From positions 1 through 22,803 of IMG/VR virus record IMGVR_UViG_3300014914_000043: a stretch of DNA of 22,803 nt, one strand, 5' to 3'. Below the pieces are notes generated by a model that did not search any database, was not told the DNA's origin, and worked only from the letters and a program-made list of their open reading frames with translations. This DNA comes from a virus. A program made the position numbers and the translations under genes. Shown here one piece after another: positions 1 through 2,740 of the stretch. Position 1 is the stretch's first letter. Every line of letters starts with the position of its first letter.

Positions 1-169
1 CATAGTCCCACAGACCTTAGGGGCTTGGCTGCTGATTGCCCAATCCCCACATTTTTCAAGCCATTGCGTTTGTTCTTTCGAACTCCGCTGTGGCAGTGGG
101 GCTCTAAGGGTGTCCCAGCAGTTAACGAGATTTTCATCGGCTATTTTCATAGCCGAGCCTCCCGATTGA
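1..169 (-). ncRNA. Second group I intron in the tail tube gene, 5' part
   Basis: On the minus strand, directly after exon 2, a group I core is clear. P1 pairs exon CUCCU with GGGAG. P2 is a perfect seven-bp hairpin with a GAAA tetraloop (155-138). P4 pairs CUGCUG (121-116) with CAGCAG (34-29). P5 and its extension pair CCCCAC (101-96) with GUGGGG (50-45). The Q-like segment GGGCAAUCAGCAGCCAAGC and a P7-like GGACUAUG at the edge are typical of phage IA introns. The 3' half, and any endonuclease gene, lies outside the window. Confidence 0.85.
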
Positions 170-387
170 AGGAGCTGATCAGGATAAACAGGAGTAGCAG
201 CATTCATGCCGACATCTCCTATTTCTCCAACAGCTGCCATCCTGTCACCGGTGTCTTCCTGGCCAAGAAATGCATTCTGCAGATATGGGTCATTCCCATA
301 ATCCTTCTGGGCGTATTTAGCCCTCTGCATAAGTCCATACAGTGCTGCTCTGTCAAGTATCACAAATACAAGTGATCCAGCGATTCC
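170..387 (-). CDS. Tail tube protein, exon 2
   Basis: The exon encodes GIAGSLVFVILDRAALYGLM, a region with charged helices, and ends ATPVYPDQL plus two bases of the next codon. 'GIAGSLVF' and a 'Y-x-D-Q' followed elsewhere by 'PPFD' are patterns I associate with phage tail tube proteins, so this part is firmly tube-like. The start is set at 387 because intron 1 must end in G and exon 1 ends in phase 0. The end at 170 rests on a P1 helix in the next intron (CUCCU with GGGAG, closing U-G pair). An end three bases earlier, after AGCT at 173, is a weaker option. The same frame stays open on both sides, so exon borders are not shown by stops here. The rest of the gene lies beyond the window. Confidence 0.7.
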
Positions 388-2590
388 CTTATAACCTTCT
401 GATATCGAAGGTGTTATATAGACTATACCATCAGACTTAGATTTCTTACCTAAGTCTGGGAGCGTATTACGATTCCATGCAAGGAACCGTCCAGTATCTA
501 TACTCGTATTATGCATCTTTAATCTCCTTTACTATATCCTCTATACGTCTCATATCTTGTTTTCCTATCCACAGGATACGTAAATCATACTCTTTAGCTA
601 ACATCTTTTTCCTAGAAATGTACTCTCTATACTTTTTCCCTATTTTACCTTTCACATCCTGCATCCCAAGATATTCTATATATAACTCTTTATCTGGTAG
701 GTAGAAGTCACTTTTCAGAAGAAGCTTGTCATTATAAAGGTCATGATGAGGATATGGATAGTGCAAAACATGCCTAATATTGTTGTTGTATAGTAGATCA
801 TCTATAACGCGCTCTCCTATAGAGTCACAAAGATGTCCGTCTAATGCTACGCACGTTTTCCCGAAATATGCTCCAGTTCTTTCTATAGGAATATTTGCCA
901 TACGTAGAGCGTTTGACCATGAACCAAACCTTCTTTCAATCACACTTGTAGACGGATAGTCTTTATTATCATTGAAGAAATCATATGTTATAAATCCATG
1001 TTCGTTATAAAACTTCCTTAGTTGTCCTAACAGATATTCATCTGTATAGTTATGATGTTTATTTATTGGTATACCTGCTGCTTGTAACGCATTATTAAAC
1101 GATCCAAAAGTACGTTCACATACTCTACTTAGATCCTTATTAGGCATTAAGTCTCTTAACATCTGATACGTAACTCGACCGTACTTGTCATACAAATGCC
1201 TCAACAGAAATATCAAGATTGCTTTTTTCTCATGTTGAGACATGTTTCTAGGGAAGAAGTGTTTATTATGTTCGAGTATAGGTACTGAGTCGTTACGGGA
1301 TCCATCTGTTACCAGATGGCTTACCCACGGTGTTGTATCAACAATAGATTCTACATCTACTGTAGTTCCATTATTGATAGTTCCACCGTTTTGAGCTCCT
1401 TTTACAAGCGCAGAATCGCTACCTACGCTTGCCCCTACTGAAGCTGAGGGGATTGACAGCACCGAGGACGTAGATTGGGGCTTTTTCCGTGGCTTATTGC
1501 CATCGACTATTTCTTCATCCACATCTTCGTGGAGGGCGGCGTTAGCAGAGTTACTGCTATGTTTGAGCAACAAATTGTACCTCGTAAGAGTATACGAATC
1601 TACCATTTCATAGCTATTTTTCATTATATATTCTAACATTTTAAGTGCATCATCTCCGTTTATAACAAGCGAAACTTTATCTACATCTTCTTCAGCTTTG
1701 GCACCTTTTATTCCTATACTATCCATATATCGTTCTATTAACTTCATATATTTGTCGTGTCCAGAAAATCTAACCCTTGGAGTCTTATACGCTATCTTAC
1801 CTCCTAAAACAAGATATCCTACAACAAAATCCTTTAGGAACTCATCCGGTATATCAGGACTCTCTTCTTTGCCTACTTTCAACAATTCTACAACTTTGTT
1901 TATTAATTCTGGATATCTGATAACAAGAGCTATGTATTGTTCATATGTATATATAGGTATATTTGTTTCATACAACGTTTTTATAAGCTGTAATGCATCT
2001 CTCCTAGCATGATCAGTTCTGTATTCAATTCTATTTAACCTTACGTATATATATGCTTTTGCAGCAGTTATGCCAAGCAATGACGCAGATCTCTTGTTAA
2101 TTGTATCGAATACATGTTCGTCGTATACATACTTGTGCATATTAACTTCTCTTTTTAGTCCTAATTCTGCTGCCTTTGTTATAACCGCTTGCTTTGTTCT
2201 GTCAGGAAATAGATCAAATACGGCAGGGTTCGTACTATAGTTCTCTTTTAGCAGTCGTATTTCGTCTTCAGTCCATGGAGATCTACTTACGAAACCATGC
2301 TTAGTTTTTATCTCTTGTATAAAAGAGACAGGTACGTTAAGCTTTTTCGCTAACTGAGTGTTAGTCATTTTTTTGTAGTGATCCCTTACGTAATTGATAA
2401 TTTTAACACGTTTTACGTTGTTGCTCATAGAACCCTCCTCTTTTCGGAGTTCAAGAACAAAGTCTGTAGACCGCTCGTCAGACCGTACTGATTTCCAGTA
2501 CGCGAGATACGGTACGGCGTTAGCTCGTTAGCCTTCACCGTAGAAGCCGCCTTTTTCCTCTGTATGTTACCATACAGGGTCGCGAACTTC
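388..2590 (-). mobile_element. Group I intron (IA-like) in the tail tube gene, with homing endonuclease gene
   Basis: The self-splicing intron core is visible on the minus strand. P1 pairs exon 1 UCGU with GCGA. P2 is a seven-bp hairpin with a GUAA tetraloop (2577-2560). P4 pairs CCGUAC (2517-2512) with GUACGG (2488-2483) behind the AAUCAG Q-like segment. P7 pairs AGACU (2465-2461) with AGUCU (424-420) in the S-like GGUAUAGUCU. P8 is a nine-bp hairpin (458-432), and P9 a six-bp hairpin (412-394). The arrangement resembles the T4 td intron. The endonuclease gene fills the space between P7 and P8. The 3' splice site is placed after AAG at 388 because this keeps exon 2 in frame. The 3' site is less certain than the 5' site. 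Length about 2.2 kb. Confidence 0.85.
509..2428 (-). CDS. Composite homing endonuclease encoded in the intron
   Basis: This 639-residue protein should cut intronless tube alleles and so spread the intron. It is a mosaic. Residues 12-46 form a helix-turn-helix. Residues 50-93 form a SANT/Myb-like module (PWTEDEIRLLKENY... KAAELGLKRE). Residues 198-268 look like a degenerate single LAGLIDADG half (FVVGYLVLGGKIA..., without the acidic catalytic residue). Residues 318-358 are a Ser/Gly-rich linker. Two homing-endonuclease-associated repeats follow (about 405-453 and 464-513, each ending FGS-x-x-x-AL). The C-terminal domain is a PD-(D/E)XK-type nuclease with E539 (GER), D574 (SDFYLPD) and E585 (IEYLG). 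The gene has its own GAGGAGGG ribosome site and would be translated from unspliced RNA. The family of the catalytic domain is inferred from motif spacing. Confidence 0.85.
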   Translation of the reverse strand: MSNNVKRVKIINYVRDHYKKMTNTQLAKKLNVPVSFIQEIKTKHGFVSRSPWTEDEIRLLKENYSTNPAVFDLFPDRTKQAVITKAAELGLKREVNMHKYVYDEHVFDTINKRSASLLGITAAKAYIYVRLNRIEYRTDHARRDALQLIKTLYETNIPIYTYEQYIALVIRYPELINKVVELLKVGKEESPDIPDEFLKDFVVGYLVLGGKIAYKTPRVRFSGHDKYMKLIERYMDSIGIKGAKAEEDVDKVSLVINGDDALKMLEYIMKNSYEMVDSYTLTRYNLLLKHSSNSANAALHEDVDEEIVDGNKPRKKPQSTSSVLSIPSASVGASVGSDSALVKGAQNGGTINNGTTVDVESIVDTTPWVSHLVTDGSRNDSVPILEHNKHFFPRNMSQHEKKAILIFLLRHLYDKYGRVTYQMLRDLMPNKDLSRVCERTFGSFNNALQAAGIPINKHHNYTDEYLLGQLRKFYNEHGFITYDFFNDNKDYPSTSVIERRFGSWSNALRMANIPIERTGAYFGKTCVALDGHLCDSIGERVIDDLLYNNNIRHVLHYPYPHHDLYNDKLLLKSDFYLPDKELYIEYLGMQDVKGKIGKKYREYISRKKMLAKEYDLRILWIGKQDMRRIEDIVKEIKDA

Positions 2591-2740
2591 ACGAGTAACC
2601 GAAAAAGAAATACCTTGTGCGTTACCCAGAAGGTATGTTCCGATAATCAGATTAATGTCCGCTCCGCCAAACGACGTATAGCTTCTTGCTACGTCGCTGA
2701 CGTTACTGTCGATTCCAAGTCCTCCAAAATTGCTGGCCAT
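2591..2740 (-). CDS. Tail tube protein, exon 1
   Basis: This is the first exon of the inner tail tube gene, which normally follows the sheath. The ATG at 2740 has AAAGGAGGTG five bases upstream; an ATG at 2770 in the same frame lies in the hairpin without a ribosome site and was not chosen. The 50 codons give MASNFGGLGIDSNVSDVARS and then end with GNAQGISFSVTR, a pattern I associate with tube proteins of myoviruses of Gram-positive hosts. Unspliced, the frame would stop after seven more codons at 2567. The splice point after CGT at 2591 rests on a P1 helix (UCGU with GCGA, ending in the conserved U-G pair) and on the 13-base distance to P2. The exon ends in phase 0. Confidence 0.75.

Follow-up and report, generated by a model that had tools for sequence, protein, structure and literature searches.

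A phage tail-tube gene probably split by three or more group I introns, with an endonuclease reading frame that crosses two of them

Introduction

The genes usually listed as intron-bearing in phages are those for polymerase, terminase and nucleotide reductase. A structural gene of this kind is orf142 of Staphylococcus phage Twort, which carries three group I introns (Landthaler and Shub, 1999, as described in PMC11878797 and PMC10136302) and was later recognized as the tail-tube gene (PMC11878797). A 23-nt exon lies between two of its introns and can be skipped (PMC10136302). In Kayvirus 812 the tail-tube gene orf103 has introns beside an intron nuclease gene (PMC6445280). Some Bastillevirinae genes contain two or three group I introns, in one case with exon skipping (PMC11878797); the genes affected are those for polymerase, terminase and nucleotide metabolism, and the tube is not among them. 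With Twort and Kayvirus 812 as examples, a tail-tube gene with multiple group I introns is therefore a known kind of arrangement.

Here we describe a tail-tube gene that very likely carries three or more group I introns. The window analyzed is a complete IMG/VR contig of 22.8 kb (IMGVR_UViG_3300014914_000043, 22,803 nt). As in Twort orf142, which an initial annotation of this DNA had rightly named as a precedent, the gene follows the tail sheath, encodes the tail tube and would contain three group I introns, two of them separated by a tiny exon (23 nt in Twort, 63 nt here); skipping of this exon was seen in Twort. The Twort introns, however, are at other places, and the phage studied here groups with Moorella phage MTATph1 and Bacillus phage KLEB27-3. 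A direct search of the Twort tube (ORF106) against the present tube family gave no match, hhalign returned a probability of 5% with weak loop similarity, and the Twort record has no annotated endonuclease ORF that crosses an exon. Kayvirus 812 orf103 is alike in having introns in the tail-tube gene and an adjoining intron nuclease gene, but its two introns are non-coding and the phage belongs to a different family. A narrow literature search found no report of one endonuclease ORF across two introns and an exon. What is new here is another phage group, the recurrence of the interruption and the exon-crossing ORF.

Results

Gene order and exons of the tail-tube gene

The genes discussed are all on the minus strand, in the order terminase, portal, major head protein, tail sheath (identified by a PHROG match) and, immediately downstream of the sheath, the tail tube from ATG 2740. 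By major head protein and tube, the closest named phages are MTATph1 and KLEB27-3, with 31–32% identity in the major head protein, and the tube homologue in KLEB27-3 carries the annotation 'tail tube protein'. Two sister contigs, L002 and L003, share 91–93% DNA identity with this contig. The MTATph1 gene MTATph1_CDS0020 (L006 13345–14001, OR602862) is annotated 'major head protein' and begins at an internal ATG; its homology reaches well upstream of the annotated start, and it is really a tail tube.

The gap between sheath and tube (2838–2800, minus strand) contains an intrinsic-terminator hairpin that overlaps a strong sigma-70-like promoter (TTGCTA-17-TATAAT, 10/12), identical in sequence in L002 and L003. 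The tube gene may have its own transcription from this promoter.

A tube-family HMM was scanned against all frames. Three tube pieces were found in the correct order and frame, among them a micro-exon:

2591..2740, minus strand: tail-tube exon 1 (MASNFGG...GISFSVTR), 50 codons; tube-family HMM 43.6 bits
1425..1487, minus strand: micro-exon, 63 nt, EKAPIYVLGAVNPLSFSRGKR; tube-family HMM 34.3 bits, frame in agreement with exons 1 and 3
170..387, minus strand: tail-tube exon 3 (GIAGSLVF...PVYPDQL+L), 218 nt; BLASTP to the MTATph1 tube, E = 7e-8

The Shine–Dalgarno sequence AAAGGAGGTG precedes ATG 2740. The three exons, which measure 150, 63 and 218 nt, can be joined without a change of frame. When exon 3 was aligned to the MTATph1 tube by BLASTP, the alignment stopped at DQLL, precisely at the start of intron 3; the contig ends before the 3′ half of that intron and before exon 4. 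The three-exon product scored 123 bits against an HMM of 34 tubes, but only 56 bits when the micro-exon was omitted. The predicted product of the joined exons is the tail tube, at its position after the sheath, in agreement with the initial annotation.

Tubes recovered from IMG/VR share one extremely conserved block, SVTREKAPIYTMGSPDPRSFSRGKRGIAGSLVF, which is present in 66 of the 66 complete related tubes. The protein implied by the initial annotation, with SVTR joined to GIAGS, would lack 21 block residues conserved in every one of them. That annotation had correctly placed group I introns in the tail-tube gene, and the 5′ splice sites (after TCGT at 2591 and after CTCCT at 170), the GNRA-capped P2 hairpins in both regions that it named and the 218-base exon (387–170) between its two introns are all present. 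The region 2590–388, which it took for the first intron, is better described as two introns and an exon, giving three predicted introns instead of two. The intron count, the extent of the first intron and the SVTR|GIAGS junction were wrong because the 63-nt exon, hidden inside an endonuclease ORF, had been missed. Its suggestion that splicing is a strong regulatory point for tail assembly is speculative.

The micro-exon sits within this ORF in a different frame, and the same micro-exon is present in L002 (listed as L147). Between the two contigs it differs by 2 substitutions, both synonymous for the tube and both non-synonymous for the ORF, a selection test that comprises two nucleotide changes only. 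A candidate junction, DPV|IVYITPSISEGYK, reflected chance similarity just upstream of exon 3 and was discarded after the micro-exon was found. On the minus strand, ATG 516 with the Shine–Dalgarno sequence AAGGAG opens a frame that continues through the last part of intron 2 and on into exon 3; if the RNA stays unspliced, a tube fragment with an altered N-terminus could be made from this start.

Group I cores of the introns

The sequences between and after the exons were read as follows:

1488..2590, minus strand: predicted group I intron 1, 1103 nt; matches the core descriptor
388..1424, minus strand: predicted group I intron 2, 1037 nt; matches the core descriptor, P1 and P10 read from the sequence
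1..169, minus strand: predicted group I intron 3, of which only the 5′ part precedes the contig end; partial match to RF00028

Introns 1 and 2 both have a U·G pair at the 5′ splice site in P1, and both end in G. In intron 1, P1 is UCGU|/GCGA (2594–2591/2583–2580), P2 is capped by GUAA (2577–2560), P3 is GGCGGC/GCCGCC (2551–2546/1540–1535), P4 is UACGGUG/CGCCGUA and P7 is C(A)GACU/AGUCG (2466–2461/1508–1504), accompanied by P8, P9 and the terminal G. In intron 2, P1 is CAAGCGU|/GCGCUUG (1431–1425/1411–1405), and an 8-bp P10 to exon 3 is formed by GCGAUUCU/GGAAUCGC (1419–1412/387–380); P3 is GGAGC/GCUCC (1399–1395/463–459), P4 is ACGGUG/CACCGU, P7 is A(C)GACU/AGUCU (1293–1288/424–420) and P8 lies at 458–432, again with P9 and a terminal G. 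In both introns the ORF is inserted between P7 and P3′, the interval where group IA introns carry P7.1/P7.2.

The core descriptor consisted of P3 directly before P8, P4 just after P3, a bulged P7 (GACU/AGUC), a J8/7 of 5–10 nt and P9 before the terminal G. It was composed after the pairings had been seen, and was found in 0 of 3000 dinucleotide shuffles for intron 1, 0 of 3000 for intron 2 and 0 of 1028 real windows of this contig used as controls. With the descriptor slightly widened to accept a 4-bp P8, a single G-U in P4 and longer loops, a match was obtained to L073, another phage, whose tube has a compact intron at the site of intron 1 (VTR|E); the J8/7 of that compact intron, UGAAGAAAU, is identical to that of intron 1, and the P3 is compensated (CGACCU/GGGUCG). 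The tube introns of L071, L135 and L139 did not match the descriptor as run; in L071 and L135, which are interrupted at the VTR|E site, this is probably because the HEG sits elsewhere.

The search with Infernal and the Rfam group I model that the initial annotation had proposed recovered the truncated third intron and neither of the other two. At a relaxed threshold, region 1–178 matched RF00028 with 20.5 bits (E = 0.0022, model 1–136, 3′ truncated), a score below the curated cut-off; the pairings of this intron are P1 CUCCU|/GGGAG, a GAAA-capped P2 and P4–P5. The halves of introns 1 and 2, set apart by about 0.9 kb of ORF, gave no RF00028 match even at E ≤ 10, and the compact L073 homologue was unconvincing (16.2 bits, E = 0.089). 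Over the whole contig nothing was reported at the curated Rfam threshold, and blastn of the 5′ half of intron 1 against phages returned chance matches only. For the TGG-TAA hairpin after exon 1, a group II intron and translational bypass had been considered, and both were dropped since a group I core fitted.

An endonuclease ORF across two introns and the micro-exon

One long ORF and its ribosome site lie in this region:

509..2428, minus strand: 639-codon ORF spanning intron 1, the micro-exon and intron 2; PF18780 3.8e-15, PHROG 559 5.2e-9, PHROG 9084 3.3e-5
2429..2452, minus strand: Shine–Dalgarno GGAGGG of the ORF within the hairpin GAACUCC...GGAGGGUUC; from sequence and MFE fold

The start of the ORF is in intron 1 and its end in intron 2, two introns that are only 63 bp apart. 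Its N-terminal part (about 2428–1537) has an HTH and a LAGLIDADG-like domain, a linker covers splice-core sequence and the micro-exon, and the C-terminal part (about 1249–509) has two HNH_repeat matches and, by PHROG similarity, a homing-endonuclease domain. The ORF in the first tube intron of contig L063 is a homologue of residues 1–297 (E = 5e-19; 27% identity over 282 residues) and contains Pfam LAGLIDADG_3 at 1.1e-6; Pfam LAGLIDADG searched directly against the N-terminal half gave no match. Relative to L063 both LAGLIDADG catalytic acids are replaced (AADGC to AAKAY and FDGDGS to LVLGGK), so this half should not cut. The C-terminal half, a candidate EDxHD / PD-(D/E)xK homing endonuclease, gave an AlphaFold model with a pLDDT below 50 in the nuclease part, and neither half of the ORF yielded a model good enough to search for related folds. 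An HEG search in viral contigs gave matches only in the sister contigs L002 and L003.

Compared with L002, synonymous changes accounted for 18/32 (p = 5e-5) and 17/32 (p = 4e-4) in the two ORF halves; judged by these substitutions, both ends of the ORF are under purifying selection. In the linker (micro-exon and intron 2 core) 2 of 8 changes are synonymous in the ORF frame, with 0 synonymous to 2 non-synonymous in the micro-exon and 2 to 4 in the intron 2 core. The linker frame is without a stop for 103 codons (p = 0.0016 by shuffling), whereas the other two frames contain 8 and 10 stops. No ribosome site is visible at the first ATG of the second half (about 1246), and this half thus seems to need an upstream start. 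Because the ORF overlaps both ribozyme cores, its translation and splicing should exclude each other; the hairpin over the ORF ribosome site would favour splicing.

Interrupted tubes in related phages

By HMM tracing, the tube gene is interrupted in nine lineages: this contig with L002/L003, L063/L102, L066/L136, L056/L144, L071, L073/L074, L083, L135/L139 and L143. The uninterrupted tubes form 46 clusters at 90% identity. Tube introns scored above the Rfam cut-off in L063 (58.8 and 50.5 bits), L056 (52.9 bits) and L083 (73.4 and 90.8 bits). By our reading, six of the nine distinct insertion sites fall within the 22–24 codons of the conserved block, a clustering that, as a post hoc count, has a chance of about 1–2 in 10,000 under uniform placement.

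Close parallels are L063 (IMGVR_UViG_3300028840_003855) and L083 (3300037400_004093), which have the same tube family with two introns around a short exon in the same conserved block, at insertion sites that are off by a few codons from those of this contig. The first intron of L063 encodes a homologue of HEG1 of this contig; in L063, in contrast, each intron ORF has its own stop and the LAGLIDADG catalytic acids are intact.

A second tube paralogue, in L016 (2876–4066), is interrupted by an apparent intein (NPKGY|C...HN|SYGGRTIGGS), whose place matches the intron sites of the first tube.

Discussion

The transcript is predicted to begin with exon 1 and intron 1, followed by the 63-nt micro-exon, intron 2, exon 3 and intron 3; exon 4 would follow off the contig and is expected to open with ...PFDVTI..NEYGQ. 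Each intron would excise itself, using a P1 with U·G at the 5′ site and a terminal G, and exon joining would rebuild the conserved tube block SVTR-EKAPIYVLGAVNPLSFSRGKR-GIAGSL. We infer this three-intron scheme with high confidence, as it is strongly supported by the exon, core and family comparisons. A scheme with two introns only, exon 1 being joined straight to exon 3 (SVTR|GIAGSL), would also use genuine splice sites at both junctions and keep the reading frame, and the known skipping of a short exon between group I introns in Twort orf142 (PMC10136302) makes it a possible minor form. As the main arrangement it is very improbable: the 21 residues that it loses occur in each of the 66 complete relatives, the family score falls by 67 bits, and two R/S pairs and an internal splice pair have no explanation under it. 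It is likewise hard to believe that the interruptions are something other than group I introns, the gene being broken or split by endonuclease insertions into separately translated pieces. That introns 1 and 2 are missed by Rfam would fit such a gene, and in unspliced RNA the exon 3 frame could be entered from ATG 516 with its AAGGAG; yet the junctions are exact and in frame, with P1/P10, terminal G and full cores, the micro-exon appears to be under purifying selection, the 5′ part of the arrangement is kept in L002 (into intron 2) and L003, and Rfam-positive introns occupy homologous positions in L063 and L083.

The nature of the ORF is a closer question. It may be a chance in-line arrangement of two separate intron endonucleases, of which the first has no stop, with no fused protein being made or selected. 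The linker, free of codon constraint in the ORF frame, agrees with this, and loss of the catalytic acids of the first domain is expected for a decaying endonuclease. We regard this accident as a serious rival with a considerable, though minority, share of the probability; it is opposed by the length of the open linker across two ribozyme cores and an exon, by purifying selection on both halves in the same frame and by the lack of a visible ribosome site at the start of the second half. Our own reading is that the ORF would encode one translated two-domain protein, with a linker that is open yet unconstrained.

In the working model built on this two-domain reading, (i) unspliced RNA would be translated into one protein of about 73 kDa from the 639-codon ORF; (ii) the second half of that protein would cleave the conserved block of tube genes that lack introns; (iii) repair would copy both introns and the micro-exon between them as one mobile unit; and (iv) the dead first half would be retained for DNA binding or to aid the folding of intron 1. 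This combination of fused protein, second-half cutting, joint mobility and a retained dead half is the most likely account of the locus, although we hold it tentatively and would give it slightly less than an even chance. The fuller proposal, that introns 1 and 2 with their exon are a composite element, that the fused endonuclease homes the pair while translation excludes splicing, and that exon skipping may give a second isoform, is conceivable but rather unlikely.

Since nine lineages of another phage group have been invaded, the tail tube is an apparent general landing site for mobile introns, with insertions at six neighbouring sites in its most conserved block and an intein in one case. 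The exon-crossing ORF would be a natural case of two introns sharing one endonuclease, in a structural gene where translation and splicing should compete. The tail-tube genes of such phages will be missed or mis-annotated unless micro-exons are sought.

Two of the related contigs are themselves rich in introns. The tail tube of L083 (6100–7530) has three group I introns and a 14-codon micro-exon, and further group I introns are present on that contig. The L063 contig is unusually intron-rich: its 32 kb contain five or more full-length group I matches.
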